DNA from: Opitutaceae bacterium
Lineage (GTDB): Bacteria; Verrucomicrobiota; Verrucomicrobiia; Opitutales; Opitutaceae
Length of the DNA stretch: 64,000 bases
NCBI GenBank assembly: GCA_003151515.1
Contig: PLXS01000008.1
Coordinates: forward strand, 62,001-126,000
Reading direction: 5' to 3'
The notes below the pieces were generated by a model. That model was not told the DNA's origin. It ran no database searches and worked only from the letters and a program-made list of their open reading frames with translations. Both the position numbers and the translations under genes were made by a program. Of the stretch, positions 36,618-61,611 are shown in pieces. Every line of letters starts with the position of its first letter. The first letter of the stretch is position 1.

Positions 36618-39341
36618 CTAGACCTCGATGACGGCGCGAATCACCCCGTCGCCGGCGGACTGGTGCAGCCGGAATCCCACCCGGCGGGCGACGCTCTTCA
36701 TGGCCACGTTGTCCGGAAGGATCTCACCCGTAACAACCGAAAGGTGCTCGTCGCGGCCGACGCGAACGACCAGGCGCAGCAGCATCGATCCCAGGCCGCG
36801 GCCCTGCCAGCGGTCGTCGACCAGCACGGCGAACTCGCCTGAATTCGTCCCCGGCTGCTTCACGAGCCGGCCCACGCCGATGATCTCGCGCTCGCCCGAC
36901 CTCGGGTCCGTGTGCTCCGCCACCAGGGCCATCTCGCGGTCGTAGTCTATGAAGCAGAGTCTCGCCAGGCGCTCGTGCGCGATGCGCTGCTCGAGCTTCA
37001 GGAACGAGAAATAGCGGTTGTAGACAGAGTCCTCGGACAGGTGGTGGTGCAGGCGCACCATGAGGGGCTCGTCCTCGGCCCGGATGGGACGGATCGTGAC
37101 CGGCGTGCCGTCCTTGAGCGTCTCGGACCTCACGTAATGGAAGGGGTAGGGGCGGATGGACGGGCGCGGCAGCTGCTGCTCCTTGACCGACGGGTCATGC
37201 AGCACGATGCGGGCGTCCAGGGCGATCATCTGCTCGCTGGAGACGAGCAGCGGGTTGATGTCGATCTCCTTGATGCGCGGATGCTCGGCCACGAGCTGGC
37301 TGAAGCGCACGAGCAGCAGCTCGAGGGCCCGGATGTCCGCCGGCAATCTTCCGCGGACCCCGAGGAGTGCGGCGTGGATCTTGGTCTGCTCGATGGCGAG
37401 GCGCGCCAGGTTGGCGGTGAGCGGCGGCAGCGCCAGGGCCCGGTCCCTGAAGACGTTGACGAGCTCGCCGCCGGCGCCGAAGACGATCACGGGGCCGAAG
37501 TTGGGGTCCACGCTGCTTCCCAGCAGCAGCTCGTAGCCCGTGCGCGACGCCATGCGCTGCACGGTGACGCCAAGGAAGTGGCGCTTGCCCGCCTTCTCGG
37601 CCACGGACTTCTCGATCGCCCTCCAGGCAGCGCGGACGCCGGCGCGCGACCCCACGTCAAGGTGCACGCCGCCCACCTCGGTCTTGTGCGCCAGGCTCTC
37701 GGAGTGCAGCTTCACGGCGACCGGGTAGCCCATCCGCTCCGCCGCCGCGACGGCGGCCTTCTCGCTCAGCGCCAGGCTCGTTTCCACAGTCGGCAGGTCG
37801 TACGCCGCGATCACCTGCTTGGCCTCGTACTCGCTAAGGAGGGTGCGGCCGGCGCGCTGCGCCAACCGGATAACATCGGCGGCGCGCTTGCGCGCTCCTT
37901 CCCCCCCCGTCGAGAAGGCGGAGAGCGCCGGCGTCTCGTAGAGCGAGTGCAGGTTCGAGCTGCGCTGCCACATGTAGCAGAACGCGCGCGCCGCCGTGTC
38001 CGGGTACTCGAAGACCGGGATGCCGCACTCGGCGAGGACACGCCGTCCGCCGTCCACCTCGGCCCCGCCCATCCAGCTGGCGAGCACGGGCTTGCGGTGG
38101 ATGTTCGCGAAGGGCCGCAGCGCCTCGGCGGTCGTCGTCGCGTTGGTGAGGGCCTGCGGCGTGAGGACGACAAGCACGCCGTCGCTCTCGGGGTCGGCGA
38201 CGGCGACCTCGACCGCCTTCGCAAAGCGCGCCTCGTCCGCGTCGCCCTGGATGTCGATCGGGTTGCCGTGACTCCATGCCTTGGGCAGGAAGCCGTCGAG
38301 TGCGGCGACGCTCGCCGAGGTGAGCTGGGCGAGGCGCCCGCCGCGCGCGACAAGCGTGTCGGCGGCCAGCGCGCCCGGCCCGCCCGCGTTCGTTACGATG
38401 CAAAGGCGCGGGCCCCGTGGGACGGGCTGCTTGCCGACCAGCTCGGCCAGCTCAAAAAGGTCCTCGATGGTGTCGACGCGAAGGACGCCGACCCTGCGGA
38501 AGGCGGCGTCAAGCACCTCGTCGCTCTCGGCCATCGCCCCCGTGTGCGACACGACGGCGGTCGCCGCCGCCTCGGTGCGACCGACCTTGATGACGATGAT
38601 GGGCTTCGTGAACGACACCTCCCGGGCCGCCGACAGGAACGAGCGGGCGTCGCCTATCGACTCCATGTAGATCACGATGCTGTGCGTGTTCGGGTCGCTG
38701 CCGAAGTGGTCGATCAAGTCGCCCCAGCCGAGATCCAGCATGGAGCCGACCGAGACAAAGGCGCTGAAGCCGAGTTTCTTGCGGAAGCTCCACCCGAGGA
38801 TTGCAGTGCAAAGCGCCCCGCTCTGGCTGATGAAGGCGATGTTCCCGGGCTGGGGAAGGGCGCCCGCGAACGTGGCGTTCAGGTGCGCATGCGGCGCCAT
38901 GAGCCCCAGGCAGTTGGGGCCGAGGATGCGCACGCCGCCGCGCGCCGCCTCCTCCTTGATCTGGCGCTCGAGCTCCGAGCCCTCGGAGCCGCTCTCGCGG
39001 AAGCCCGCCGAGAGGATGACCGCGCCCCTGACACCGGCCTGCCCGCATTCCCTGACAATGCCGGGCACCGTCGGGGCCGGCGTCGCGATGACGGCCAGGT
39101 CGATCGGGGCGGGGGCCGCTTCCACGGAGGGGAACGCCTGCATGCCCAGGATAGTCTCGTGGTTCGGGTTGATGGGATGGAGGCTTCCTCCGAAGGAGCG
39201 AAGGTTCTCAAGGACGCTGCGGCCGACGCTGCCCTCCTTGTCGGTCGCTCCGATGACGGCGATCGAGCGCGGGGCGAAGAGGAAGTCGAGGGTGCGCGCG
39301 GAGCCCCTGTGCGGGTCCAGGATGCCTGCGTGTGATTTCAT
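36618..39341 (-). CDS. pat: ADP-forming acyl-CoA synthetase-like protein fused to GNAT acetyltransferase (Pat/AcsP type)
   Basis: Protein of 907 residues. Residues about 20-150 are the CoA-binding domain ([21 protein letters not shown]). The succinyl-CoA ligase-like domain has [16 protein letters not shown] and the phospho-His loop [14 protein letters not shown]. The ATP-grasp half follows at about 480-700 ([48 protein letters not shown]). Residues about 735-907 form a GNAT domain ([46 protein letters not shown]). This is the architecture of the protein lysine acetyltransferases Pat/YfiQ. In many Pat proteins the synthetase half is inactive, but the His is present here. It is divergent from an acetate-kinase-family gene, which suggests control of the acetyl-CoA/acetate/acetyl-phosphate pool. 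Confidence 0.93.
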
Positions 39342-39570
39342 GGTCTAGGGTGTGGGCCGTCTCAGCCCCGGCCGCTTCTGCCTCGTGCTTTGATTATGGG
39401 CATTTGCTTCGGGCGGGCAATCCCTCAGAGGGGGCGGGGCGCCCCCTGCACGAAATGCACACTAAAGCGCAATGCCTGCGGAGCCGGGAAGCGCCCCCAT
39501 AAGATAATATACTTACCTTGATTATTTCCGGGAAAGAAGGCGACGGGCGCCGCTGCACTCGGCGCGGGCG

Positions 39571-40776
39571 ATGAGACCCGCGTCGATCCACGTCCTTTCG
39601 GTCAACGGGGGCACCTCGAGCGCCAGGTTCGCCCTCTTCGAGCTGGGCGCCCGCGAGCGCATGGCAGTCTTCGTGGACTGCGGGGGGATCGGGCTCGCGA
39701 CGGGCCGCTTCCGCGCCAACGACGAGGCCGGACGCGTGCTTTGCGACACGGCAGGCGTGTTCCCGGACCACGAGTCCGCGGCCCGCAGGGCGGTGGACTG
39801 GCTGCGCGCCTGCGTGCCGGACCTGCGCGTGGATGTGCTCGGCCACCGGTTCGTGCACGGAGGGCGCCGCTTCGCGGAGCCCGTCCTCATCACTCCGGAG
39901 CTGGAGGATGAGCTGTTCACCCTGATCCAGCTCGAGCCCGGCCACCTGGAGCCCGACGTGCGTCTCGCCCGCGCCATGGCGGAGCTTTTCCCGCGCGTGG
40001 CAGGGGTCGCGTGCTTCGACACCGCCTTCCACAGGACGATGCCGGCGGTCGCGCAGATGCATCCCCTGCCGCGGGAGCTCTTCGACCAGGGCGTCGTGCG
40101 CTTCGGGTCGCACGGGCTCTCGCTGGAGTACATCATGTCGCGGCTCGCGGCCGATTCCGGGGCGAACGCCGCCCACGAGCGCGTGGTCATCGCGCATCTC
40201 GGCTGCACGGCCAGCATGACGGCCGTGCGCCACGGCGCGAGCGTCGACACGACGGCGGGCTACATGCCGAACGGTGGCCTGATGATGGCCACGCGCAGCG
40301 GCGACCTAAGCCCGGGAGTCCTGCTGCACCTGCTCATCGGCAAGGACATGCCGGCCCTCGACGTCAACAGGATGGTGAACTTCCAATCGGGCCTGCTTGG
40401 CGTGTCGCGCGTCAGCCGCGACATGCAGGAGCTACTCAAGTCGGCCGACACCAATCCTCACGCGGCCGAGGCTGTCGCCCTCTTCTGCTACACGGCGAGG
40501 AAGCACCTGGGCTCCCTGGCGGCGGTCCTTGGGGGCCTCGACACGCTGGTCTTCACGGGAGGCATCGGCGCCAACGCCCCCGCGGTGAGGCGGGGCATCT
40601 GCGAGCAGATGGAGCACCTTGGAATCAGGCTGGAGGCGGGGCGAAACAGGCAGAACGGCGCCGTCATCTCGCCGGAGGGAAGCCCTGTCACGGTGCGCGT
40701 CGTGCCGGCGAACGAGGAGCTGGTGGTCGCCCGGGCGGCCGCCAGGGTCGCCAGCGAGAGCCTGTTCAAGGACTAG
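39571..40776 (+). CDS. Acetate/propionate kinase family protein (AckA-like)
   Basis: Protein of 401 residues. AckA catalytic residues can be matched: VLSVNGGTSSARFALF, HRFVHGG, FDTAFHRTMP, RFGSHGLSLEYI, TRSGDLSPGV, TGGIGANAPAVR and PANEELVVAR. One loop departs from the norm: the phosphate-binding HLGNGxS reads HLGCTASM, losing a Gly. This looks like the AckA paralogue often encoded beside stress or phosphoketolase genes, not the classic ackA-pta pair. No pta or xfp is in the window. It would interconvert acetate plus ATP and acetyl phosphate plus ADP. A short AT-rich stretch at about 39500-39540 may hold its promoter. Confidence 0.9.
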   Translation: MRPASIHVLSVNGGTSSARFALFELGARERMAVFVDCGGIGLATGRFRANDEAGRVLCDTAGVFPDHESAARRAVDWLRACVPDLRVDVLGHRFVHGGRRFAEPVLITPELEDELFTLIQLEPGHLEPDVRLARAMAELFPRVAGVACFDTAFHRTMPAVAQMHPLPRELFDQGVVRFGSHGLSLEYIMSRLAADSGANAAHERVVIAHLGCTASMTAVRHGASVDTTAGYMPNGGLMMATRSGDLSPGVLLHLLIGKDMPALDVNRMVNFQSGLLGVSRVSRDMQELLKSADTNPHAAEAVALFCYTARKHLGSLAAVLGGLDTLVFTGGIGANAPAVRRGICEQMEHLGIRLEAGRNRQNGAVISPEGSPVTVRVVPANEELVVARAAARVASESLFKD

Positions 40777-40788
40777 CGGCGGTGCCCG

Positions 40789-41175
40789 TCAGGCCCTGCG
40801 GGGTGGCGTACGCGGCGCGGCCTCCCGGCAGAACCGGGTCCACGGGATCGCGCGCAGGCGGTCCAGGGATATTGGCTTCCCCGTGGCCTCGCAGATACCG
40901 TAGGTTCCATTGCGAATCCTCTGCAGGGCGGCCTCCACCTCGGCGATGGAGTTTTCCTCCATGCCCAGCTCGGCAAAAAGGATGTCGCGCTCGCTCCTGT
41001 CGGCCGCGGTGTCGGAGGGGTCCTTGTGGGCCTCGGCCAGGGACTCGCTCACCTCGCGCCGGTGGGCGTCGCGGTCGCCGATCAGCCGGCCGTTAAGGCG
41101 CATCAGCGCGCGGTAGTGCCACCGCCAGCGCGGATCGATCTTCACGGACGGGTCGCTGCTCTCTTCGCCGCTCAT
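40789..41175 (-). CDS. DksA/TraR-family protein with reduced zinc finger
   Basis: Protein of 128 residues. An N-terminal helical part (WHYRALMRLNGRLIGDR) and an acidic coiled region (SERDILFAELGMEENSIAEVEAALQRIRNG) lead to the C-terminal zinc-finger region YGICEATGKPISLDRLRAIPWTRFC. Only two of the four canonical Cys remain (CEAT and FCRE), a pattern known in DksA2-like proteins that function without zinc. It should bind the RNA polymerase secondary channel and modulate transcription under stress. It starts two bases after the nitroreductase stop, so the two are co-transcribed, and it is convergent with the AckA-like gene. Confidence 0.88.
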   Translation of the reverse strand: MSGEESSDPSVKIDPRWRWHYRALMRLNGRLIGDRDAHRREVSESLAEAHKDPSDTAADRSERDILFAELGMEENSIAEVEAALQRIRNGTYGICEATGKPISLDRLRAIPWTRFCREAAPRTPPRRA

Positions 41176-41177
41176 GG

Positions 41178-41741
41178 CTAGTTGAGGAATTCGGGCCGGT
41201 GGCGATGGGGATCCTCGGCGGGCCCTTCCGGATACCCTACGACCAGTGGGAAGACGGCCGTGTACTGCACCGGGATCCCGAGCTCCGCCTTGATCTCGTC
41301 CAGGTCAAGCCACGGCTGCGCGAAGCCGATGGGGCAGGTGCCCAGGCCCATGTCGAAGGCCGAGAGCATCAGGTTCTGCGCGGCAAGGTAGCACGCGCCG
41401 ACCGCAAATCGGTCGTGGTTCGGCTTGGCGTAGACGACCACAAGGGTCGTGGCGTCGTGGAAGATGTTGTAGCCGGGCTTGGTGAGGATCTCCCGCATGC
41501 GAACGTCGGGGTCAGCCGAACCCGGGCTGAAGGATTCCTGGAAATACAGCTTGGCGCGCTCCGAGAAGTCCTGGAGGCGCTCCCTTCCCTTGAAGACGGC
41601 GAACGCCCACGACTGCGAGTTCATGGCGCTCGGAGCCTGGGCGGCGGCCTCGGCGAGGGCAGCGATCACCTCCCGCGGCACGTCTCGGTTCGTGAAATGC
41701 CTAATGGCCCGGCGTCCGTATATGGCGTTCATCAGTTCCAT
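41178..41741 (-). CDS. Nitroreductase-family FMN oxidoreductase
   Basis: Protein of 187 residues. It begins MELMNAIYGRRAIRHFTNRDV, with the FMN phosphate-binding Arg pair (RRAIRHF), then APSAMNSQSWAFAVF for FMN contacts, LAAQNLMLSAFDMGLGTCPIGFA, and a C-terminal VVGYPEGPAEDPHR, all typical of the family. It should use NAD(P)H to reduce quinones, nitro compounds or flavin-linked substrates. It is the first gene of a two-gene unit with the DksA-like gene. Nitroreductases of this type are recurrent members of Usp/acetate-kinase stress clusters. Confidence 0.92.
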   Translation of the reverse strand: MELMNAIYGRRAIRHFTNRDVPREVIAALAEAAAQAPSAMNSQSWAFAVFKGRERLQDFSERAKLYFQESFSPGSADPDVRMREILTKPGYNIFHDATTLVVVYAKPNHDRFAVGACYLAAQNLMLSAFDMGLGTCPIGFAQPWLDLDEIKAELGIPVQYTAVFPLVVGYPEGPAEDPHRHRPEFLN

Positions 41742-41958
41742 GGGAGCGAATGGGCTATTCTGGGTTTTGGGGCGATTCTCGGGGTGTGCTCCCGGTACTG
41801 GGAGCGGCGGCAGCCGGTGCCGTACTCACTGGGACATGTTAGCATTGGATCGGTTCGACTGCTCCGCAGGACTTGCGCAACGCTGGGCATTTCTTGGTCG
41901 CGGAGGCGCGAAAGCGAATGGAGGTCAGGCTCTCCCGGGTCGGCGGCGCGGGCGGCCC

Positions 41959-42417
41959 CTAGCGCCGGCGCGGCCTCTTCCTCTGAGCCGGCACGATGAC
42001 GACGGGGCAGGGGGCCCGCTTGAGAACGCCGCCCGTCGTGCTTCCAATCAGCAGGTCGTAGAAGCCCGTGTGGCCGTGCGAGCCCATGACAATGTAGTCG
42101 GCCTTCCACTTCTCGGCCTCCGAGGCGATCATCCGCGACGAGGAGGCGCCGGTCACCTGTGCGGTCGTTGCCAGCAGGTCCTGGGCCTCCACGCGGCTCC
42201 TTATCTTCTCAAGGCGGGCGGTCGCCGCCTGGCCCATAGTCTCCATGACGGGAAGGACGAAGGAGCCCATGAGGCCGTAATCGGCGACGACCGCCGGGGG
42301 CTGAAGGACATGCATGATCACAAGGCGCGAGCCTGTCGGGACCGCGAGGGCGATCGCAGCACCGACGACCGAGTTCGTCACAGGGGAGAAGTCCACCGGG
42401 ACAAGGATGGTGCTCAT
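41959..42417 (-). CDS. Universal stress protein, UspA family
   Basis: Protein of 152 residues from ATG 42417 (MSTILVPVDFSPVTNSVVGAA). The ATP-binding pattern G2xG9xGS is present as IVMGSHGHTGFYDLLIGSTTGGVLKRAPCPVVIV, so it belongs to the ATP-binding class. A Lys/Arg-rich tail (AQRKRPRRR) ends the protein. It is flanked by a second Usp, the PocR-AraC regulator and the nitroreductase gene, so it is part of the stress island. About 215 bases of apparently non-coding sequence separate it from the nitroreductase. Confidence 0.94.
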   Translation of the reverse strand: MSTILVPVDFSPVTNSVVGAAIALAVPTGSRLVIMHVLQPPAVVADYGLMGSFVLPVMETMGQAATARLEKIRSRVEAQDLLATTAQVTGASSSRMIASEAEKWKADYIVMGSHGHTGFYDLLIGSTTGGVLKRAPCPVVIVPAQRKRPRRR

Positions 42418-42570
42418 GGTGCCATAGGTTACTTCCTGCCCCGGCGCCCGGCTGCGCGAATCTTGCCAATTGCGGTGCAACGTTTGGCCCGGCTGGCGGC
42501 CGCCGGGCATCAGGCTTGCGGGATGTCCAAGGCGGGGCCGTCCCGCGGGGGAGCGAAGGGGCGATGCGGA

Positions 42571-43545
42571 TCAGGCCGCGCAGGTCATGCGGGCGGGCTC
42601 GGCGACCCCGGCGCGCTTGCGGTGCAGGGCGTCGCGGAAGTTCGAAGGGGTCTCGCCGGCGAAATGCCTGAAGACGCGGTTGAACTGCGAGAGCGACTGG
42701 AAGCCCGCGTCGTAGGCCGCCTCGCTTATGCGCTTGTGCGGATCGAGGAGCATGCGCTTGACCGTCTCAACCCGCAGCCGGGCAAGGTATTCGGTAAAAG
42801 TGAGGCCCATCTCCTTCTTAAACATCTTGCAGAAGTAGTAGATGCTCATGCCTGCGGCGCGCGCCACCTCCCCAAGGGTGATCTCCTCGGCAAGGTGCTC
42901 CGCTATGAATGCGCGGGCCTTGGTAATGGTCTGCGACTCGGCGGCGTTCTCGCTCACCATGATCTGGTTGCCGAGGCTCGAGAGGTGCTGCGCAAAGATG
43001 CTGATCAGGTGGACGGAGGACTCATAGCGCTGGCGCACGACCACCTGCGAGCGGAAGTACGCCTCCTTAAGCGCTTTCGCGTCGGTCGTGACTCCCCAGC
43101 TGCGGACCCGCTTCAGGATGATGCTGAAGTGCGAGTTGGACGGCCTGCGCATGAGGACCTGCCCGGTCTGCAGGAAGGCGACCACCCGCTCGCCGATCCG
43201 CACCGGGACGGCCGTATCGCTCAGGCCCGCGAAGCACTCGAGCGTGGCGGCCTTCTCCGAGGCGTGCACCTCGATCCTCTCCTGCAGCTCCAGGCATGCC
43301 GCGCAGCTCTTGTTCTGGGAGGCCATGAGCTGGCATAAGGGATTCGCGTGCCTCGAGCCGTGAAGGGGCGTCTGGAACGATCCGACGGCGCGAAGCGCCA
43401 GGGGAAGCCCGGTCGCCGCCTCGAATGACCGCTGGTAATCGCGATAGATCTCCGATTTCTGGAGGCAGGCCGCGAGGTCGCGGTCCGCCCGTTCCCCGCC
43501 TTTTACTCCTACAACTCCTACCCGCGTCATAGTGGAGGCTTGCAT
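42571..43545 (-). CDS. AraC-family regulator with N-terminal PocR ligand-binding domain
   Basis: Protein of up to 324 residues; the start may be the Met at 43530. The PocR domain (about residues 28-180) has the family Cys motif region PLCQLMASQNKSCAACLELQ, CFAGLSDTAVPVRIGERVVAFLQTGQV. The C-terminal AraC double HTH has ITLGEVARAAGMSIYYFCKMFKKEMG and ISEAAYDAGFQSLSQFNRVFRHFAGETP. PocR domains bind small hydrocarbon derivatives such as 1,3-propanediol in PduR/PocR-type regulators. Here it sits between the two usp genes and probably regulates parts of the island, but the ligand is unknown. Confidence 0.92.
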   Translation of the reverse strand: MQASTMTRVGVVGVKGGERADRDLAACLQKSEIYRDYQRSFEAATGLPLALRAVGSFQTPLHGSRHANPLCQLMASQNKSCAACLELQERIEVHASEKAATLECFAGLSDTAVPVRIGERVVAFLQTGQVLMRRPSNSHFSIILKRVRSWGVTTDAKALKEAYFRSQVVVRQRYESSVHLISIFAQHLSSLGNQIMVSENAAESQTITKARAFIAEHLAEEITLGEVARAAGMSIYYFCKMFKKEMGLTFTEYLARLRVETVKRMLLDPHKRISEAAYDAGFQSLSQFNRVFRHFAGETPSNFRDALHRKRAGVAEPARMTCAA

Positions 43546-43762
43546 GATGCTGCAGCTTACACGTTCGGCGGCGACCTGGGAATCGGTGGCGCGTAGTTAC
43601 TTCGCTAAGGGAATTCCTTAGGGTATAGGTGCTCCGGCAGGTTCCCGCCGGGCGGACAGTCCGGGCAATGGCAGCCCCTTTGGGCCCTCGGTCACTGCGT
43701 CGGCTGAGGCGGCGGCCGCTCCCGGCATTCCGACTTCAGGCTTCTCTGCTGGGTGAATCGCC

Positions 43763-44218
43763 TCATCGTTTCTTCGCTCCGGGCCTCGCCCTCACGACGA
43801 CAACCGGGCATTTCGAGCGCTTCAGGACGCCGCTTGTCGTGCTGCCGACCAGCAGGTCATAGATGCCGGAGTGTCCGTGTGATCCCAGGACGATGTATTT
43901 CGCCGCGTGCTTTCTCGCCTGCTTGAGGATCTCGAACGCTGGGAAGCCGTCGACCTGCAGGGTCTTCACGCGGACCTGCCGGTACTGGAGGTATTCCTTC
44001 CATTTCTTGAGGCGGCGCGCTCCCGCCACCCTCATGGCGTCGAGAAGGGGTACCAGCTCGGTGAAATAACCGTCCGGGCTGCCGGCCATGCCTGGCGGGT
44101 TGACGACGTGCAGAAGGACGATCCGGCCGGCCGGCCGGCCCCGGGTCATGGATATGGCCTGGGCGACCACGGCCTTCGTCACCGGCGAAAAGTCGGTTGC
44201 AGCCAGAATGGTGTCCAT
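43763..44218 (-). CDS. Universal stress protein, UspA family
   Basis: Protein of 151 residues from ATG 44218 (MDTILAATDFSPVTKAVVAQA). The ATP-binding segment IVLGSHGHSGIYDLLVGSTTSGVLKRSKCPVVVV is intact. It is similar in length and sequence to the Usp encoded at 41959-42417, so the pair looks like paralogues. It is transcribed divergently from the PAS kinase operon, with the starts about 35 to 160 bases apart depending on the kinase start. That placement suggests control by the same regulators. Confidence 0.94.
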   Translation of the reverse strand: MDTILAATDFSPVTKAVVAQAISMTRGRPAGRIVLLHVVNPPGMAGSPDGYFTELVPLLDAMRVAGARRLKKWKEYLQYRQVRVKTLQVDGFPAFEILKQARKHAAKYIVLGSHGHSGIYDLLVGSTTSGVLKRSKCPVVVVRARPGAKKR

Positions 44219-44253
44219 GGTGACAAGGCTACCCCAGGGGTGGCGCCCTTGCT

Positions 44254-46146
44254 GTGCGCAATTTGCAAAAGAGTGCGCGTCGCTTGCGTCCGGCAGCGGT
44301 ATCGTGCCAGATTCATGGCGCTGAGCGCCTCCTGAAAACCGTAATCCGCGGGAAGACCGATCCGGCACTACTGCAGCCCTTGAAAAACGAGCGATACGAG
44401 AGCCCTGTCGCATTCATCTGCGCGGCGGCCGTGCTCATCGCGAGCCTCGCCCTTGTGGCCTCGGCCGCCGCAGGGGAGACGAGGCTGGCCGCCATAGCGC
44501 TCGGGGCGGCGGCAAACCTGGGATTCCTGGCGTGGATATTCCGGCGCACCTCGCGCCATGCCAGGGAGCGGGCGGCCGCCTCTGCCGATGCCGAAAGGCA
44601 CCGGCAGGGCTTCGCGATCGCCAACTCGATCATCGAGGCGACCGACGATGCGATCATCACGAAGGACCTGAAGGGCGTGATCCAGGGCTGGAATCGCGGG
44701 GCCGAGAGGATCTTCGGGTACAGCGCAGCCGAGGCCATCGGCAATAACATCATGCTGATCGTCCCGGAGGACCGCGCCGAGGAGGCGAACGGGATCGCCG
44801 AGCGCACCCTGCGCGGCGAGTCGGTCGGGCAGTATGAGTCGGTGCGCCGTCGCAGGAGCGGCGAGCTCATCGACGTCCTTGTCGGCGTGGCCCCGATTCG
44901 GGACCTGCAGGGAAGGGTGATCGGGGCCTGCAAGACCGCGAGGGACATCTCCCAGCAGAAGCGCATCGGCAGGGAGATGGCTGCGACCCTCACGGAGCTC
45001 AAGGACGTCAGGGCGGCGCTGGACGAGCACTCGATCGTGGCGATCACGGATGCGGCCGGCTTGATAACCTTCGCGAACGACAGGTTCTGCGACATCTCGA
45101 AGTACTCGCGCGAGGAGCTGATCGGGCGCGACCACCGCATCATCAACTCCCGCTACCACTCGAAGGAGTTCTTCAGGGACCTTTGGTCGACGATCGGCCG
45201 CGGCCACGTGTGGCGCGGGGAGATACGCAACCGCGCCAAGGACGGATCCTACTACTGGGTCGACACCACGATCTTCCCTCGGCTCGGCGCGGGGGGCAAG
45301 CCGACCCAGTACATCGCGATCCGCACCGACATCACGCAGCGGAAGGCGAACGAGCTCGAGTTGCTGCGCACGGCCTCGGAGCTCTCGGAGAAGAACAAGG
45401 AGATGGAGACGATCGTGTACACCGTGTCCCATGACCTGAGGTCGCCGCTCGTGAACATCCAGGGATTCGGGCGCCAGCTCAACCGCTCGTGCGAGCGCAT
45501 GCGCGCCCTGGTGTCCGGGGCCGGAGACAACGCCGTGCGGGAGGCGGACCTGAGGGAGGCCGTCGAGTCGACGATACCGCAGGCCCTTCGCTTCATCAAC
45601 GCCAGCACGAACAAGATAGACCTCCTGCTCGCAGGGCTGCTGCGCTACTCGCGCCTGGGAAGGGTGGCCCTGAGCATCGTCCCGCTTGAGATGAACTCGC
45701 TGCTCGCCGAGATCGTGGCCGCCACCAAGTTCCAGCTGAACGAGGCCAAGGCCGAGATCAGGATCGGGCAGCTCCCGAGCTGCCTGGGCGACAGCGTGCA
45801 CACGAGCCAGGTCTTCGCGAACCTGATAGACAACGCCCTGAAATACCGGGACCCCGGGCGGCCGCTGCGCATCGAGGTCAGCGGGTGGACCGAGGGCGAC
45901 CAGGCCGTGTACACGGTCTCCGACAACGGCATAGGGATCGCCCCGGACCACCAGGCCAAGATCTTCGAGATCTTCCACCGCCTCAACCCCGACACCCAGA
46001 ATGGGGAGGGCCTCGGGCTCACCATCGCGCAGCGGGTGCTCGAGCGCCAGAACGGAAAGATCTGGGTTGAGAGCGACGAGGGATCCGGATCCAATTTCCA
46101 TATATCGCTACCGATGACGGCCAACGCCATGGCGCCGAAGCAATGA
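44254..46146 (+). CDS. Membrane-anchored PAS-PAS histidine kinase
   Basis: Product of up to 630 residues; the GTG at 44254 is the earliest start, and a TTG at 44380 (protein LKNERYESPVAF) is more natural and places two membrane helices at the N-terminus (FICAAAVLIASLALVASAAAG and LAAIALGAAANLGFLAWIF). PAS 1 is ANSIIEATDDAIITKDLKGV, PAS 2 is LDEHSIVAITDAAGLITFAND. The H box is VYTVSHDLRSPLVNIQGFG. The HATPase has LIDNALKY, VSDNGIGIAPDH and GEGLGLTIA. It is the first gene of a four-gene phosphosignalling unit and overlaps the next gene by ATGA. Confidence 0.91.
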   Translation: MRNLQKSARRLRPAAVSCQIHGAERLLKTVIRGKTDPALLQPLKNERYESPVAFICAAAVLIASLALVASAAAGETRLAAIALGAAANLGFLAWIFRRTSRHARERAAASADAERHRQGFAIANSIIEATDDAIITKDLKGVIQGWNRGAERIFGYSAAEAIGNNIMLIVPEDRAEEANGIAERTLRGESVGQYESVRRRRSGELIDVLVGVAPIRDLQGRVIGACKTARDISQQKRIGREMAATLTELKDVRAALDEHSIVAITDAAGLITFANDRFCDISKYSREELIGRDHRIINSRYHSKEFFRDLWSTIGRGHVWRGEIRNRAKDGSYYWVDTTIFPRLGAGGKPTQYIAIRTDITQRKANELELLRTASELSEKNKEMETIVYTVSHDLRSPLVNIQGFGRQLNRSCERMRALVSGAGDNAVREADLREAVESTIPQALRFINASTNKIDLLLAGLLRYSRLGRVALSIVPLEMNSLLAEIVAATKFQLNEAKAEIRIGQLPSCLGDSVHTSQVFANLIDNALKYRDPGRPLRIEVSGWTEGDQAVYTVSDNGIGIAPDHQAKIFEIFHRLNPDTQNGEGLGLTIAQRVLERQNGKIWVESDEGSGSNFHISLPMTANAMAPKQ

Positions 46147-46586
46147 ACCAGATGCCGGAGATCCTCATTGTCGACGACGACGAGGGCCATGCGATCCTTG
46201 TGCGCGAGAACCTGATCGCGGCGGGTTTGAACAATCCGATCCGGCACTTCACCGACGGCCAGGCGGCGCTCGACTTCTTCTTCGGGCCGAGCGCCGCGAA
46301 GCGCACCGATCCCGGGCAGGCCTACCTCGTCCTCCTCGACGTGCGGATGCCCAAGGTCGAGGGGGTCGAGGTCCTTCGCCGCCTCAAGGCGGACCCGGAG
46401 CTGCGCAAGATGCCTATTGTCATACTCACCACGACCGACGACGCCCGGGAGGTCGAACGCTGCCACCAGCTCGGCTGCAACGTGTACATCCAGAAGCCGG
46501 TCGACTACGACAAGTTTGCGGAGGCCATCAGGCGCCTCGGCCTGTTCATCACGCTGATGATGCTCCCGCCGGTCAACGGGCGCTGA
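46143..46586 (+). CDS. Stand-alone receiver protein, Rcp1-like
   Basis: Protein of 147 residues starting MNQMPEILIVDDDEGHAILV. The phosphorylation site is VLLDVRMPKVEGVEVLRRLK, with VILTTTDD and YIQKPVDYDKFAEAI completing the switch. It lacks an output domain and resembles the receiver at 22983-23435 in motif spacing, suggesting the two kinase systems share a common origin or logic. It overlaps the upstream kinase stop by four bases and lies 11 bases before the receiver-kinase gene. Confidence 0.94.
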   Translation: MNQMPEILIVDDDEGHAILVRENLIAAGLNNPIRHFTDGQAALDFFFGPSAAKRTDPGQAYLVLLDVRMPKVEGVEVLRRLKADPELRKMPIVILTTTDDAREVERCHQLGCNVYIQKPVDYDKFAEAIRRLGLFITLMMLPPVNGR

Positions 46587-46597
46587 GCGGGCGACAC

Positions 46598-47656
46598 ATG
46601 CCAGCGCCGCATCCCACCGAGCACATCCTGATCGTCGACGACGACGACGGGATGCTCATCCTGATGGCGGAGGCGCTGCGCGCCGAGCATTACGCCGTCG
46701 CCACCGCCCATTCGGGATCCGCTGCGCTTGAGGCCATGGGGCGGCAGGTGCCGGACCTCATGCTCCTGGACCTCAAGATGCAGGACATGGACGGAACGAC
46801 CCTGATCAAGCGGCTGAAGGAGCGCAACCTGCGCGTCCCGTTCATCGTCGTCACGGGCAGGGGGGACGAGAAGGTCGCAGTCGAGACGATGAAGGAGGGG
46901 GCGCTTGACTACGTCATGAAGGACACGGGCCTGCTCGACCTGCTGCCCTCGGTGATCAAGCGCGCGCTCAGCGGCGTCGAGCGCGACCGGGCGCTCGCCG
47001 GCGCCCAGGCCGACAGCCGCAGGCTCGAGAGCGAGATCGTCGCCATAAGCGAGAAGGAGCGGCACAACATCGGCGCGGACCTCCACGACGGACTGGGCCA
47101 GCAGCTGACCGCGGTCGAGCTGATCTGCACGGGCCTGAAGGAGGACATCGCGGAGCTGCGGCCGGACCTGAGGGAGCGGGTCGAGCAGATGGGCAGGATG
47201 CTGCGGGAGGCGGTCGCGCAGACCCGGGTCCTGTCCCGGGGCCTGGTTCCGGTGAGGGACGACCCGGACGCGCTGCGCACGGCCCTGGCCGAGCTCACCG
47301 AGAGGATCAATTCCCTGAGGCGCATCCGCTGCCGGCTGGAGTGCCCGGCGACGGTGGCGGCCCTCGAGCCCACGGTGGCGGGCCACCTCTACAGGATCGC
47401 CCAGGAGGCCGTGAACAACGCCGTGAAGCACTCCAAGACGACGGAGATTGTGGTGCGCTTCCGCGACACCAAGGACGGCCCCTGGCTCCAGATCTCGGAC
47501 AACGGCTGCGGCATGCCCAAGACGGACGAGCGAAACCCGGGCCTTGGGCTACGGATGATGCAGCACAGGGCCCGTGTGATCGGGGCCACGCTGACCGTGT
47601 CCTCGAAGAAGGCCGCCGGAGTGACGGTAACCTGCGCGTTTGCGCCCAGGGAATGA
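46598..47656 (+). CDS. Receiver fused to NarX-type (HisKA_3) histidine kinase
   Basis: Protein of 352 residues. Residues 1-125 are a receiver (ILIVDDDDGMLI, LMLLDLKMQDMDG, VVTGRGDEKVAVETMKEGALDYVMKD). The HisKA_3 phosphoacceptor is in ISEKERHNIGADLHDGLGQQLTAVEL. The HATPase has LYRIAQEAVNNAVKHSKTTE, ISDNGCGMP and GLGLRMMQHRA. HisKA_3 kinases pair with NarL/FixJ regulators, and exactly such a gene follows with an ATGA overlap. A receiver at the input end means this kinase is itself controlled by phosphorylation from the upstream kinase. Confidence 0.94.
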   Translation: MPAPHPTEHILIVDDDDGMLILMAEALRAEHYAVATAHSGSAALEAMGRQVPDLMLLDLKMQDMDGTTLIKRLKERNLRVPFIVVTGRGDEKVAVETMKEGALDYVMKDTGLLDLLPSVIKRALSGVERDRALAGAQADSRRLESEIVAISEKERHNIGADLHDGLGQQLTAVELICTGLKEDIAELRPDLRERVEQMGRMLREAVAQTRVLSRGLVPVRDDPDALRTALAELTERINSLRRIRCRLECPATVAALEPTVAGHLYRIAQEAVNNAVKHSKTTEIVVRFRDTKDGPWLQISDNGCGMPKTDERNPGLGLRMMQHRARVIGATLTVSSKKAAGVTVTCAFAPRE

Positions 47657-48372
47657 AGGCCCGGGCGAAGAAGCACGCTTCCCAGGGTCCGGCGGAGGCG
47701 CCGGCCGTGCGAGCGGCCCCGGCCCCTCGAAAGAAGATCCTCCTCGTCGACGACCACCCGATGATGCGGGCGGGGCTCGCGCAGCTCATAAACCGGCAGC
47801 CCGACCTCGAGGTCTGCGGCGAGGCTGGGGATCCGGCGGCGGCCAGCAGGGAGCTTGCCCGGATACAGCCCGACCTGGTGCTCTCCGACATCAGCATGCC
47901 GGGCAGAAGCGGCCTTGAGTTCATCAAGGACCTGCTCGCCCAGAACCCGAGCATGCTGATCCTGGTGGTGTCGATGCACGACGAGGTCGTGTACGCCGAG
48001 CGGGCGCTGAGGGCGGGCGCGCGCGGCTACGTGATGAAGGAGGCCGGCGGCGAGAACCTGCTCGCCGCCATCCGGCAGGTCCTCTCGGGGCAGGTCTACC
48101 TGAGCCCGAAGATGTCGGCGAAGATTCTGGACGACCTCTCCGCCAGGCGTCCCCGCGGCTCGGCCTCGCCGATCGAGAGGCTCAGCGACCGCGAGTTTGA
48201 GATCTTCCAGCTCGTTGGCCTTGGCAAGAGCACGAAGGACATCGCGGTGCAGCTGCACCTCAGCCCGAAGACGGTCGACGTCCACCGCGGTCACATCAAG
48301 GAGAAGCTTCAGATGCCTGATTCGACAGCCCTCGTCCGGTACGCGATCCGCTGGGTGGAGACCCAGACCTGA
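47653..48372 (+). CDS. Response regulator, NarL/FixJ family
   Basis: Protein of 239 residues from ATG 47653 (MKARAKKHASQGPAEAP), with a longer than usual basic/Ala-rich N-terminal extension. Receiver: ILLVDDHPMMRAGLA, LVLSDISMPGRSGLEFIKDLL, VVSMHDEVVYAERALRAGARGYVMKEAGG. LuxR-type HTH: LSDREFEIFQLVGLGKSTKDIAVQLHLSPKTVDVHRGHIKEKL. It is the output of the signalling operon and is the best candidate regulator of the neighbouring usp, nitroreductase and pat genes. Confidence 0.95.
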   Translation: MKARAKKHASQGPAEAPAVRAAPAPRKKILLVDDHPMMRAGLAQLINRQPDLEVCGEAGDPAAASRELARIQPDLVLSDISMPGRSGLEFIKDLLAQNPSMLILVVSMHDEVVYAERALRAGARGYVMKEAGGENLLAAIRQVLSGQVYLSPKMSAKILDDLSARRPRGSASPIERLSDREFEIFQLVGLGKSTKDIAVQLHLSPKTVDVHRGHIKEKLQMPDSTALVRYAIRWVETQT

Positions 48373-48480: not shown

Positions 48481-49422
48481 GTGCGAGCGAACTCACGCAT
48501 CCTTTCCCTGGGAGGCCTAGCGGCCGGGCTGCTTGTGCTCGCCGGCGCTAACGCCGGGGCGCAGGAGTTCGTCCCGGCCGGCAAGTCCCTGCCAGAGAGG
48601 CCCGGACTGCCCATGGCCTACGTAGGCGGGGAGCGCCTTCCCATTGTCGCCTTCGACGGACACAGCCCGGTCGTCGTCGTAAACGGGGCGAGAAAGACGA
48701 GGCGCGACGTCCCGGTCTCGATCGTGCCGGGCGCGAGCTTCGGCGACGGATTTGTCGCCATAAAGGAGGCCGAGGCCACCGGAGAGCAGATGACCTATGA
48801 CATCTACGGCTCGAAATCCACGCGATCGTTCACGGCGTTTGACGCAACGCTGACGGCGGACCGCGACATGGATGACGTGTACCTGCTGCTGCTCGTCTTC
48901 CCGGACCTTGGCGGCGTCTACGACTCGGCGCCCAAGGTGGCCATTGTCGGCACGGGTGTCGGCCGCCTCGAGGCGCCCAGGGGAAAGAAGGTTTCCGCGG
49001 ACTTTCCCCCGATGAATTCGAAGGAGAGGCTCTATTGGACAGCGCTCGTCTTCAGCGGGCCCTCGGCGGTCCGCAGCACGAGGGGAAACGGGGTCCTCGA
49101 CACTCTTTTTGACGCCGTGGACCACGTGGGGCTCGGGAGGGTGATCGCGGAGCGCTCCTCGGGCGGCCATCCCCCGATGGTCTACCGGCATTTCCCCCTC
49201 AAGTTTGGTGACGACCTGAAGGGCAGGCTGGCCGGCCAGACCGTGAACCTGCGCATTCGGGTCTCGCCGGACGGCACGTTCGACTACCTGGACACGACGG
49301 GCGGCGTGGACCCCGCCCTCGCGGCCGAGGCGGCGGCGCAGTTGCGCCAATGGCTGTTCATCCCGAGGATAAAGGACGGCGCCGCCGACGAGGGCACAAT
49401 CGTGCTGCCGGTCAAGTTCTGA
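48481..49422 (+). CDS. Secreted protein of unknown function with TonB-C-like end
   Basis: Product of 313 residues starting at GTG (MRANSRILSLGGLAAGLLVLAGANAGAQ), with a clear signal peptide ending AGAQ. The bulk is not a family I can name. A first beta-rich segment contains GGERLPIVAFDGHSPVVVVNGARKTRRDV and a second MTYDIYGSKSTRSFTAFDATL. The last 60 residues (NLRIRVSPDGTFDYL, LRQWLFIPRIKDGA, TIVLPVKF) resemble the TonB C-terminal fold, without the proline-rich linker or membrane anchor of a true TonB. It is followed after 25 bases by the GH172 gene. Confidence 0.75.
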   Translation: MRANSRILSLGGLAAGLLVLAGANAGAQEFVPAGKSLPERPGLPMAYVGGERLPIVAFDGHSPVVVVNGARKTRRDVPVSIVPGASFGDGFVAIKEAEATGEQMTYDIYGSKSTRSFTAFDATLTADRDMDDVYLLLLVFPDLGGVYDSAPKVAIVGTGVGRLEAPRGKKVSADFPPMNSKERLYWTALVFSGPSAVRSTRGNGVLDTLFDAVDHVGLGRVIAERSSGGHPPMVYRHFPLKFGDDLKGRLAGQTVNLRIRVSPDGTFDYLDTTGGVDPALAAEAAAQLRQWLFIPRIKDGAADEGTIVLPVKF

Positions 49423-57799: not shown

Positions 57800-59845
57800 A
57801 TGAGATATACCCCAAAGATAGGGATGGCAGGGCTCATTGTCACTGCAGTGATGAGCGCTTCTTCCTATGCGCCGGCGGCCGATAGTATGCGCCCGAGAGC
57901 GATTGGGAGCGCGATGGATATATCGGTGGGCGGATTCAGCCACACCGACAAGGATATCGAGGCCCGACTCGATCTGCTCAGGAGCCTGGGTGTCACCAGC
58001 ATACAAACGTACATCTACTGGAACAAGGTGGAGAAGGCGCCCGGCGTGGTCGACTGGTCGGAATACGATGCAGACGCATTGTTGTTCAAGAAGCATGGCC
58101 TCAAATGGGTGCCATTTGTGATTGTCGGACCGTGGTATGTTACGCCTGAGTTTGTCCGCCGGGATCCGAAGATTGTCATGTTGCGCTGTCTTGAGCACGA
58201 CCGCGATTCGGGCATTCCGTCAATCTGGTGCATTAGGCTCAGAGACTACATCCGCGATTACCTTCGGGAATTCTCGGACCATTACATGCCGATGGGGGTC
58301 ATTGAGTCCGTCAACGTCGGCATCTCTGGGGACTACGGCGAAGCAATCTACTCGGTCTGGGGCAACTGGCCGGGCAAATACCACTCGCACCCGGGATATT
58401 GGTGCGGTGACGCCTTGGCGGTAGCGGATTTCCGGCGATCAGTGATCGAGCGCTATCCGGGCGGTGTCGGATCCCTTAACCGCGCATGGAAGACAAACTT
58501 CGCCTCCTTCGATGAGGTTCGTCCGTTCCTACCAGCGAATGCGCCCTCTGAGCATGCATGGCAGGAGCTGCTGCAATGGTACAGGGGCTCAATGGCTTCC
58601 TATGCTGGATTCTTCATGAAGACAGCCCGCGCGGCCTTTCCTGGAACCGACGTGTACTTGTGCACGGGAGGCGACATGGCTCCTGAGCACGGCTCGGACT
58701 TCAGCGCCGATGCCAAGCTTGCCGCGGAGTTCGGGTGCGGGATGCGAATTACCAACGAGGCAAGCTCGTATCCCATGAATGTCCGGCTCACGCGCCTGGT
58801 TGGCTCATCCTGCCGCTTCTACGGCGCCTATTTCGGGCATGAACCGGCATCGGTGGTGACGCCGGAAGGCATGCTGGGCCGTCTTTTCAACGCGGTGTCA
58901 TCCGGCGCCCGACAGCTGTTCCTTTACAACTCCGCCGATCTAATTGCCGAGAGTAACGGCAAGCAAGTCGCAGGGGCCGCTGGGCGCTACGTACAGGCCA
59001 ACGCGGGCCTGCTGAAGGTTACAAGTCCCCGAATAGACACGGCCATCTATCATCCCAATCCTTCAGTAGACCAGGCGCGGGTGCACCTGGAGCCGGGGCA
59101 GCTTGCCTCCAGCTATTTCGGAGACCTCGCGAGCCAGATGCGTCGGTTTGTGGACTTTGATTTTGTGGATGACCGTCTTATCCGCGACGGGGCCTTGAAG
59201 GGGAAATCGGTGCTGATCATAGCCGCCGCCGAAGTAATGGATAGCGCCACGGCTGCTCGGGTTGAGCAGTGGGTTCGGGAAGGGGGCGCCCTCTTCATCC
59301 TTGGAAGCAGGCCCACTGATTGGGACGGTTCCACGGCGACCTTTGACGCACTCGCGGGCCTCACGTTGCAATCGGACGAGGTCCAGGGAATCGCCGAACT
59401 CCTCGTGAAGGAACCGCAGACACTGCCATCAATCGCCAGCCTTCACGACGTCTACATCACGCGTGGGTTCACCGAACTCGGTGCAGATTGTGAACCGCTG
59501 CTGTCCATGGTGTACGCCCCAAAGGTTGCGGCGGCATGGAGGCGCCGGATCGGCTCCGGAGAGATCTTTGCGTATTACGGGCCCATGGATTTAAGGCAGG
59601 CGGAACAGGATTGGATGGTGGTTCAGAAGCTGCCCCTGCGGTTTGTGAAGGACGGAATCCGTGCCTGCGTCTCCGACGGCGTTCTGAAAAAGGAGCCCGC
59701 GACCCTAAACCTGTCATCCAACGACATCTACAAGGTGCAGACAGATTCTGGCTTGCTCATCTTGAACCTGGGAGGATCGAGCCAGAAGGTCGAGGTGGCG
59801 GGGCAGACTGCTGAGGTTCCGGCGTTGTCCATCGTAAGCCGTTGA
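57800..59845 (+). CDS. Secreted glycoside hydrolase, GH42/GH14-like (beta-galactosidase/beta-amylase fold)
   Basis: Protein of 681 residues with a signal peptide (MRYTPKIGMAGLIVTAVMSASSYAPAAD). Barrel motifs: GVTSIQTYIYWNKVEKAPGVVDWSEYD, LKWVPFVIVGPWYVTPEF, VNVGISGDYGEAIYSVWGNWPG with a candidate acid Glu in GDYGEA, and RITNEASSYPM with a candidate nucleophile Glu. Residues about 440-560 form a GATase-like domain (LIIAAAEVMDSATAARVEQWVREGGALFILGSRP), usual in GH42 enzymes, then a C-terminal beta domain. Exact family is uncertain. Visibly lower GC than the first 20 kb. Confidence 0.8.
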   Translation: MRYTPKIGMAGLIVTAVMSASSYAPAADSMRPRAIGSAMDISVGGFSHTDKDIEARLDLLRSLGVTSIQTYIYWNKVEKAPGVVDWSEYDADALLFKKHGLKWVPFVIVGPWYVTPEFVRRDPKIVMLRCLEHDRDSGIPSIWCIRLRDYIRDYLREFSDHYMPMGVIESVNVGISGDYGEAIYSVWGNWPGKYHSHPGYWCGDALAVADFRRSVIERYPGGVGSLNRAWKTNFASFDEVRPFLPANAPSEHAWQELLQWYRGSMASYAGFFMKTARAAFPGTDVYLCTGGDMAPEHGSDFSADAKLAAEFGCGMRITNEASSYPMNVRLTRLVGSSCRFYGAYFGHEPASVVTPEGMLGRLFNAVSSGARQLFLYNSADLIAESNGKQVAGAAGRYVQANAGLLKVTSPRIDTAIYHPNPSVDQARVHLEPGQLASSYFGDLASQMRRFVDFDFVDDRLIRDGALKGKSVLIIAAAEVMDSATAARVEQWVREGGALFILGSRPTDWDGSTATFDALAGLTLQSDEVQGIAELLVKEPQTLPSIASLHDVYITRGFTELGADCEPLLSMVYAPKVAAAWRRRIGSGEIFAYYGPMDLRQAEQDWMVVQKLPLRFVKDGIRACVSDGVLKKEPATLNLSSNDIYKVQTDSGLLILNLGGSSQKVEVAGQTAEVPALSIVSR

Positions 59846-60131: not shown

Positions 60132-61229
60132 TTACTTTGAGAACAATCCCTCGAATATCGGCGTTAGCGATCCGTCGTGTCTGCGAACAGCGAAGCTGTC
60201 GGCGTATTCCCAGACCGCCCATCCCCAGTTTCGACTTTCAGCATTTGAGCGAATGGTGGCGATCCAACGCCGCTTTGATGCCGCATCGGCCGGCTCGTAG
60301 ACTCCGAATTCTCCGACATATACCTCAATCTTTGGGGCGTGATTCGCTAGCCACGCCGAAACGCTGGCAAACGTCGCCTCGACCTGGGCGGCCGTTATCG
60401 CATCGCCAGGGTGAACATGGAAGTTTTGATAGGCCTTTTCGAATCCGCTGGCGTCCGGCACAGCGCCCGGAAACGTGACCGGAGGAAGGCCGTTAAGGCC
60501 GGCCCACGGGGCTCCTTGGTGCGTGAAAATTATCGGCTCGTAGAAGTGGAGTGTCAGCGCGATGTTTGGATCGTCCGGGAGCACGACATCCTCAATCGTG
60601 TGAAAGCTGCTCCACTTGTTTGAGGTCACGTACACGATCCGAGTGGGATTGCTCTCCCGAATGGCTGAGAGCATGCGGGCCATGAAAGGGTTGAGCAGCT
60701 TGTTGTCCGCGGCTACGGGCTCATTCAGGATCTCGAACCGGAGGTAGGGTCCCTCGCCGGCGAAATGCCGGGCCATGAGCCTCCAGCTATTGGCAGCGGC
60801 ATTCTGGATGTCCGGGTCCGTGTACGCGCGGCTGTCGCCGCCCACTGTGTTAAAATCAGCCCCCGGCAGAAAGTGGGCGTCGAGCACGACGCCTATCCCG
60901 CGCGCCTTGGCCCAACCGATGACGTTGGCAATCGGCTTGATCTTCGCCTCGTCAAGCGAGCCATCGGTCTTCAGGCAAAGGCGAAAGTCCACGGGCAGGC
61001 GGACGTGGTCAAACCCATGCTTGGATATCCAGTCCACATCGCTCTCGTTGAACCACGGAGCCGCGTAGGTCATCTCGCCGGAATTCTGCGAGAGCCAAAG
61101 CGCTATGTTGACGCCCCGCTTGAATGTGTAGGAGGGCTCCGCCGCGGTGTCGGCTGGCGAATTCATGGCCGCCAGAGTGAGGCCGATAAAAGGCAGAATC
61201 AGTTTTCGAATGACAGGATGATTTTTCAT
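60132..61229 (-). CDS. Secreted glycoside hydrolase family 5
   Basis: Protein of 365 residues from ATG 61229 (MKNHPVIRKLILPFIGLTLAA), with a signal peptide. GH5 motifs: FKRGVNIALWLS, WISKHGFDHVRLPVDFRL, GIGVVLDAHFLPG, acid/base Glu in LRFEILNEPVAAD, ALTLHFYEPIIFTHQ and the nucleophile Glu in VYVGEFGVYEP. Both catalytic residues are present. It shares little beyond fold motifs with the GH5 at 35500, so the two are not recent duplicates. It is convergent with the GH42/14-like gene. Confidence 0.93.
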   Translation of the reverse strand: MKNHPVIRKLILPFIGLTLAAMNSPADTAAEPSYTFKRGVNIALWLSQNSGEMTYAAPWFNESDVDWISKHGFDHVRLPVDFRLCLKTDGSLDEAKIKPIANVIGWAKARGIGVVLDAHFLPGADFNTVGGDSRAYTDPDIQNAAANSWRLMARHFAGEGPYLRFEILNEPVAADNKLLNPFMARMLSAIRESNPTRIVYVTSNKWSSFHTIEDVVLPDDPNIALTLHFYEPIIFTHQGAPWAGLNGLPPVTFPGAVPDASGFEKAYQNFHVHPGDAITAAQVEATFASVSAWLANHAPKIEVYVGEFGVYEPADAASKRRWIATIRSNAESRNWGWAVWEYADSFAVRRHDGSLTPIFEGLFSK

Positions 61230-61611
61230 TGTCCGTTGGGGTGGGTTATGGGCGGTTAGCAAAATACTGCGCGTCAGGCACGATATGAGAGTGTTTTTCG
61301 CGAGTAACTAAGCAATTTCGGCTGCGGTCACCGGGCGTCTGACGTCGAAGAGACGCTCCAGACGAGATGGATTGATAGCGGTCTCCGGAAAGCCAACGAT
61401 CTAAAAGAGCGCTCTTGCGGGCCAGCTTTCAGGCGGACGGCGTAGCAGCAAAGAACGCCAAGACTGACGTTGTCCCGTTGCATTAGTCGGTTGTGCCATA
61501 CCTCTCGTGGCATTTGGAGCATCGGGTGGCGTGCTCGCGGTATGATCTCGATGCAAGGTTTCATTCGTGGTAAATGAGCCCATAGGGCGTCTCCATAATC
61601 AAATCATCCTC
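61230..61611. other. 382-base divergent intergenic region
   Basis: No coding frame is convincing on either strand. It separates the minus-strand GH5 gene from the plus-strand 'RAVG' paralogue. It is expected to hold promoters for both; none is clear by eye. Confidence 0.5.

Follow-up and report, generated by a model that had tools for sequence, protein, structure and literature searches.

A putative low-oxygen survival island with its own phosphorelay and PocR module in an Opitutaceae genome

What role could unite eleven genes of acetyl-CoA and acetate metabolism, flavin redox chemistry, stress response and signalling that lie together in the genome of an Opitutaceae bacterium (3.6 Mb, 42 contigs, 92% complete)? 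The genes occupy positions 36618-48372 of the window, the whole stretch of 64,000 nucleotides that was analysed. Six encode an acyl-CoA synthetase with a C-terminal GNAT domain (Pat-like; gene pat), an acetate kinase family protein (AckA), a DksA/TraR-family protein (DksA-like; dksA), a nitroreductase (ntr) and two universal stress proteins (Usp; usp). The others encode an AraC-type regulator with a PocR sensory domain (pocR) and a four-gene relay composed of a histidine kinase (HK), a single-domain response regulator (RR), a REC-HisKA_3-HATPase kinase (RRHK, the third relay gene) and a NarL-type response regulator (NarL). A first-pass annotation made from the sequence alone had listed these genes and proposed a low-redox survival regulon controlled by the signalling genes. 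The listed genes exist, with ten of the eleven backed by Pfam and NarL known from its orthologs. The results described below are best explained by a low-oxygen or low-redox survival island with its own regulatory module, a reading to which a probability of roughly 0.6 is assigned. All evidence is comparative, the genomes are mostly metagenome-assembled genomes (MAGs), and the species counts are not independent of one another.

Conservation of the signalling module and its neighbours

A family sample of 150 genomes was searched for matches to the nitroreductase, RRHK and the cbb3 oxidase and for the palindrome pattern described in the next section. RRHK was matched in 33 of the 150 genomes at a threshold of E <= 1e-40, a few matches having just 36-40% identity. 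An alignment of 19 RRHK sequences was then used in one scan of named genome contigs that returned 413 relatives, from which the best 80 loci were kept; the 47 best-ranked (L098-L144) served as the core set, with neighbouring genes called by tblastn at a score of at least 60 bits. The RRHK row of L062 and the NarL row of L085 (reading with stops) were left out. Within the core set RRHK was accompanied by HK in 45 loci, RR in 44, NarL in 46 and pocR in 43. Synteny in relatives, on which the first-pass proposal had been made to depend, is present, and the control circuit it had seen in four signalling genes is sharpened to a conserved module of five that includes pocR.

The commonest effector neighbour of the module was ccoNO, a cbb3-oxidase gene, a strong match to which (at least 60% identity) was found in 21 of the 47 loci; dropping weaker matches had lowered the count from 24. 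The remaining 33 of the 80 loci comprised 26 related-kinase loci without pocR, used as controls, and seven with pocR. Strong ccoNO was found in none of the 26 controls, and neither was usp nor ntr, a comparison to be read with the short contigs of some control loci in mind, which lower the chance of a neighbour match there. Two of the seven loci with pocR had ccoNO (L146 and L153), L153 being from Chthoniobacter flavus Ellin428, in which cco, pocR and the relay are all present. Other neighbours in the core set were usp (12 loci), an acetyl-CoA hydrolase gene (9), ntr (6), pat (5) and dksA (4), and two loci (L100, L134) showed the single run pat-ntr-usp-pocR-relay-cco-usp. Across the 150 genomes, a cbb3 match was present in 31 of the 33 with an RRHK match versus 78 of the 117 without (p = 0.0016, with relatedness ignored). 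The frequent position of the module beside the cbb3 operon, together with Usp, nitroreductase or acetyl-CoA genes, is what makes a low-oxygen or low-redox role the best reading.

The nitroreductase was matched in 57 of the 150 genomes, and usp adjoined ntr in nine of the 11 top-ranked non-self loci (L010-L020, the exceptions being L013 and L014). In 15 wider stretches, usp and ntr were found near the cbb3 operon in L041, L046, L047, L048 and L053 (where the ntr match spans just 56 residues), with the relay and pocR close by in L049 and L050; L053 has phosphoketolase and ackA genes in the vicinity as well. A conserved protein was also observed near the usp-ntr-cbb3 genes (L041:1580-2290, L047:11007-11810, L048:10847-11638), the L041 copy having no Pfam match.

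A genome of the same genus (G131) carries pat-ackA-dksA-HK-RR-NarL consecutively at one locus (L087) and the full relay with pocR and usp at a second (L068). It might be supposed that the island genes are neighbours by chance or through loose clustering and are not co-regulated. Consistent with that supposition, ackA seldom travels with other island genes, having been seen in L087 and in the relay-less L053, and no motif is common to the upstream regions of the metabolic genes beyond chance. The inverted repeat that had been expected upstream of 41741, 42417, 44218 and 39341 did not materialize: the best candidate occurred in three of the four regions, and 84 of 100 shuffles reached three or four. 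Nevertheless, many species have these gene classes near the module, and the 26 related-kinase loci do not; furthermore, none of the 80 fetched loci contains any of three genes that flank the island in the window (GH5, a TonB receptor and the gene at 48481). Since the association is kept in relatives and the flanking genes are not, the island is a cluster beyond chance, and an absence of co-regulation is very improbable.

Sensor kinase, PocR and the conserved palindrome

In 29 HK sequences including that of the window, the second PAS domain (PAS2) and the kinase domains were conserved. PAS2 had its best PDB sequence match in MmoS (3ewk, E 1.5e-49) and was also matched by Aer (8dik) and NifL (2gj3). 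According to the excerpted text of PMC9668731, flavin-pocket residues T18, H53, N85 and R115 of Aer are equivalent to T103, H132, N164 and R195 of MmoS, and both sensors have a redox potential of about -290 mV. The alignment with MmoS placed T250, H279, N311 and R342 of HK (numbered from 44299) at these flavin-contact positions, and all four were present in 29 of 29 sequences, by which PAS2 is predicted to bind flavin adenine dinucleotide (FAD). W305, a candidate counterpart of W70 of Aer, was likewise present in 29 of 29. The phosphorylation sites were similarly constant: the HisKA histidine of HK in 28 of 29 sequences, the receiver aspartate of NarL in 29 of 29, and both the receiver Asp58 and the kinase His163 of RRHK in all 19 sequences.

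The PocR domain contains four cysteines (71, 81, 84 and 104) that were invariant in 34 of 34 sequences. An AlphaFold model of the PocR-AraC protein (predicted local distance difference test, pLDDT, 85; predicted template modelling score, pTM, 0.60) gave matches to AraC helix-turn-helix (HTH) folds and just weak GAF-like matches for the sensory domain, hence the role of the cysteines is not told by the fold.

A dyad search upstream of HK gave related inverted repeats that were resolved as the palindrome CTAgGGAAaTTCCcTAG. In the window it lies ~57 bases upstream of the pocR start codon and is the sole match above 10 to a position weight matrix (PWM). Because the matrix was trained on the pocR and HK upstream regions of these loci, matches there are partly by construction, which does not hold for the three comparisons that follow: PWM matches set against shuffled sequence, exact-pattern sites, and sites where pocR is away from HK. 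The PWM gave 52 matches in 1.02 Mb of L098-L156 versus none in 0.52 Mb of shuffled sequence, and 48 of the 52 were in the pocR-HK interval or preceded pocR. Two of the 52 had no such gene beside them (L101:1047, L154:11424). The exact degenerate pattern had 11 sites in the 150 genomes, nine of them beside pocR including the window's own, and the reversed control pattern was matched in one genome; in the host genome the window site is the sole match at <= 1 mismatch, a setting in which the reversed control also gives one. The two exact sites away from pocR (L186/L190 and L188/L191) are at L190:9086 and L191:2429.

The palindrome stays with pocR where pocR is away from HK (L105, L121, L139). The pocR nearest the relay bore the site in 47 of 49 loci of L098-L177, missing in L119 and L155 and weak in L153 (14.3), compared with none of six extra pocR copies, none of four copies in genomes without an RRHK match (L046, L047, L048, L192) and none in the one copy of L052, from a 70% complete genome. 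Left out of this count were L104 at 15532 (short upstream region) and pocR matches below 200 residues (the second copy of L130, and L144). In a pocR tree, one clade took in 45 of the 49 site-bearing rows and another 12 of the 14 site-less ones. Members of the palindrome-less second clade were found adjoining an acetyl-CoA hydrolase gene (L110:16503, L112:8741, L122:9331, L129:8124, L132:14420).

The site-less pocR of relay-less genomes was weighed as a demonstration of NarL binding at the palindrome and rejected: because these copies are mostly a separate clade, NarL and PocR are confounded as its reader. The evidence leans to NarL based on L101 (same contig as L189), in which one site lies at the HK promoter and a separate one at the pocR ~14 kb off. 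The palindrome was also considered as an operator of the cco, usp, ntr, pat and acetyl-CoA hydrolase genes, an idea abandoned when their upstream regions scored like shuffles; the palindrome is accordingly taken as specific to the pocR and HK promoters. Dyads were also found upstream of ccoNO, which may fall in the 60 coding bases included. A separate observation comes from an Acidobacteria MAG, in which a second palindrome (L148:12279-12295) separates two divergent genes, one matching the ATP-grasp part of the Pat-like synthetase and the other the GNAT part of the protein; this is one case, and the pocR of that locus groups among those of Opitutaceae, so that transfer or misbinning is possible.

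The presence of the palindrome solely at pocR in the host genome would also be expected if the relay controlled just itself and pocR, with the island under a regulator of the FNR/DNR type like the low-oxygen Usp loci of Pseudomonas and Burkholderia. One CRP-family regulator scored over the cut-off in the host genome, and its ETLSR helix presumably places it in the FNR/DNR class. Against such control, no TTGAT-N4-ATCAA site at <= 1 mismatch was found in the island, and five intergenic regions gave one site with two mismatches, at 39390. With no closer match to an FNR-type box in the sequence scanned, FNR-type control of the island was rejected as a candidate, and this explanation is considered quite improbable.

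The acetyl-CoA genes suggest another possibility, that the module is a carbon or acetate-overflow switch in which PocR has a small metabolite as its ligand, the energy state is sensed through the relay, and the cbb3, Usp and acetyl-CoA genes follow with oxygen acting indirectly. The acetyl-CoA hydrolase gene in nine and pat in five of the 47 loci are in agreement with it, as are the frequent position of the second pocR clade beside acetyl-CoA hydrolase and the requirement of Salmonella PocR for the propanediol (pdu) and cob operons stated in the excerpt of PMC3075218. However, the gene most often beside the module is ccoNO, and the PAS domain conserved in the sensor belongs to the flavin redox class. 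A carbon switch is therefore regarded as unlikely, and a low-oxygen or low-redox role is preferred.

Enzymes and other features of the island

The features of the island are collected in Table 1.

Table 1. Features of the island and their positions in the window.
Feature	Position	Strand	Evidence
Nucleoside diphosphate-forming acyl-CoA synthetase with C-terminal GNAT (Pat-like)	36618..39341	-	Pfam ACD and GNAT; PDB 9it0 (full-length), 8wzu (synthetase)
Acetate/propionate kinase family protein (AckA)	39571..40776	+	PF00871; best PDB match 7fj7
DksA/TraR-family protein, two finger cysteines	40789..41175	-	PF01258; PDB 2kq9, 4ijj
Flavin mononucleotide (FMN) nitroreductase family protein (ntr)	41178..41741	-	PF00881
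Universal stress protein 1 (usp1)	41959..42417	-	PF00582
PocR sensory domain and AraC HTH regulator (pocR)	42571..43545	-	PF10114, PF12833, both over cut-off
Conserved palindrome, core CTAAGGGAATTCCTTAG	43602..43624	none	PWM score 29.1
Universal stress protein 2 (usp2), between pocR and HK	43763..44218	-	PF00582
PAS-PAS-HisKA-HATPase histidine kinase (HK)	44254..46146 (start uncertain, 44254 or later)	+	Pfam; PDB 3ewk, 8dik, 2gj3
Single-domain response regulator (RR)	46143..46586	+	PF00072
REC-HisKA_3-HATPase kinase (RRHK)	46598..47656	+	Pfam; 19-sequence alignment
NarL-type response regulator (NarL)	47653..48372	+	Open reading frame (ORF); orthologs ~65-79% identical

Pat-like resembles the type I Pat/PatZ enzymes in its synthetase with a C-terminal GNAT domain. 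The full protein could be aligned with the solved Pat 9it0, and its synthetase part with the ADP-forming ligase 8wzu. The synthetase domains of type I Pat are described as inactive in the excerpted text of PMC8556138. Of the two features of that type, the GNAT domain C-terminal to the synthetase is present and the loss of the catalytic histidine is not: His266 is retained within the motif SHTGAM as in 8wzu, with no such histidine in 9it0, and was found in six of six Pat-like sequences including that of the window. Furthermore, the Pat-like match was confined to the synthetase (711-717 residues) in L039, L100, L134 and L135. Pat-like is thus probably an ATP-forming synthetase with a GNAT domain, as judged by its residues. 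The lysine acetyltransferase architecture named in the first-pass annotation was borne out for the C-terminal GNAT and not for the synthetase with its His266; the term covers at most half of the protein.

Most of the active-site motifs of AckA match those of 7fj7, but HLGCT stands in place of HLGNG. As a regular partner of the module AckA was not confirmed. DksA-like belongs to the DksA/TraR finger family as had been annotated; however, its finger contains two cysteines in place of four (CxxT...CxxA), as in 4ijj, the second of which was present in two of seven sequences, and it is consequently no canonical four-cysteine zinc finger DksA. A second AckA of the host genome is encoded near a phosphoketolase gene (contig C26, L092). 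No match to phosphotransacetylase (Pta) was found in the host genome by a search that was positive in 10 of 14 control genomes, and the two observations together suit acetyl phosphate made by phosphoketolase.

There are six Usp matches in the host genome. The start of NarL read from the ORF is most likely 47653, overlapping the stop codon of the RRHK gene. Scans for promoters (1 versus a shuffled mean of 0.8) and terminators (6 versus 4.5) were not clearly above shuffles. Outside the island, two ORFs judged by eye to be glycoside-hydrolase-like lie at 57800-59845 and 60132-61262 of the window, where the GC content falls to ~56%.

A candidate redox circuit and its relation to known systems

The flavin-PAS phosphorelay probably feeds PocR. 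In the circuit proposed here, the flavin-type PAS of HK would read the redox state of the cell or of the respiratory chain, low oxygen being the presumed signal. Phosphate would move from HK to the single receiver RR, which would adjust RRHK, and RRHK would phosphorylate NarL. NarL, or PocR itself, would then act at the palindrome and set the level of PocR, which through its four-cysteine sensory domain would control effector genes. In relatives the targets may include the genes for cbb3 oxidase, Usp, nitroreductase, acyl-CoA synthetase and acetyl-CoA hydrolase, and here those for Pat-like, AckA, DksA-like, nitroreductase and Usp. Acetate formation by the island enzymes could yield ATP under limited respiration, while Usp and DksA-like might restrain growth and the nitroreductase aid redox balance.

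Several results weigh against a low-oxygen survival island. The host cbb3 operon is on another contig (C30) than the island, and no strong ccoNO was nearby in 26 of the 47 module loci. cbb3 matches (109 of 150 genomes) are far commoner than the relay (33 of 150), indicating that cbb3 is controlled otherwise in most relatives. No ackA match of at least 60 bits was found by tblastn near the module in any of the 47 best-ranked loci. The N-terminal part of HK and its first PAS domain (PAS1) were not conserved among the 29 sequences. Finally, the host genome has no palindrome at the island metabolic genes, the relay being tied to them there by neighbourhood alone. The low-redox survival regulon of the first-pass annotation therefore stands in part: synteny with cbb3, Usp, nitroreductase and acetyl-CoA genes speaks for it, and the shared repeat and the association with ackA have fallen away.

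The island is reminiscent in gene content of the lxa locus of Burkholderia cenocepacia, having two Usp genes and one nitroreductase gene; excerpts of PMC6127331 and PMC3759415 describe several Usp genes and a protein annotated for flavin or nitro-compound reduction at lxa, which rises at low oxygen. The two differ in regulation, with a CRP-family FixK-like regulator under FixLJ discussed for lxa in these excerpts and a flavin-PAS phosphorelay with PocR in the island. They also differ in that, according to the same excerpts, sequenced Burkholderia had yielded no classical cbb3 oxidase, whereas cbb3 is beside the module in many relatives. HK shares the flavin-contact residues of Aer and MmoS but differs from both in that its putatively FAD-binding PAS signals to what looks like a soluble kinase, part of a relay of several genes. 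There is also a parallel with Salmonella, in which pocR is controlled by the redox two-component regulator ArcA (PMC3075218, in excerpt), although the regulator, the targets and the operator all differ.

The open-licence literature matches listed contained nothing on point for oxygen regulation in Verrucomicrobia, for PocR or for this gene set, and named no oxygen regulator of a Verrucomicrobiota cbb3 oxidase, in agreement with the earlier view that the regulon is undescribed for the lineage. The module offers named genes, a predicted flavin sensor and a candidate operator, all directly testable, and Chthoniobacter flavus Ellin428 is a carrier strain. With a seemingly functional ATP-forming synthetase linked to an acetyltransferase in one protein, Pat-like poses a testable question of its own. 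Oxygen fluctuates in the soils, peat and lakes where Verrucomicrobiota are common. We tentatively propose, at somewhat less than even odds, that Opitutaceae and at least Chthoniobacter would possess an undescribed oxygen or redox circuit for cbb3 respiration and hypoxic survival, in which PocR with its four cysteines would be the master regulator, turned on by NarL from one dedicated palindrome, and the remaining components would be a flavin kinase of the Aer/MmoS type, a stand-alone receiver and a receiver-gated second kinase. Such a circuit would correspond in function to FixLJ-FixK while being assembled from different components.

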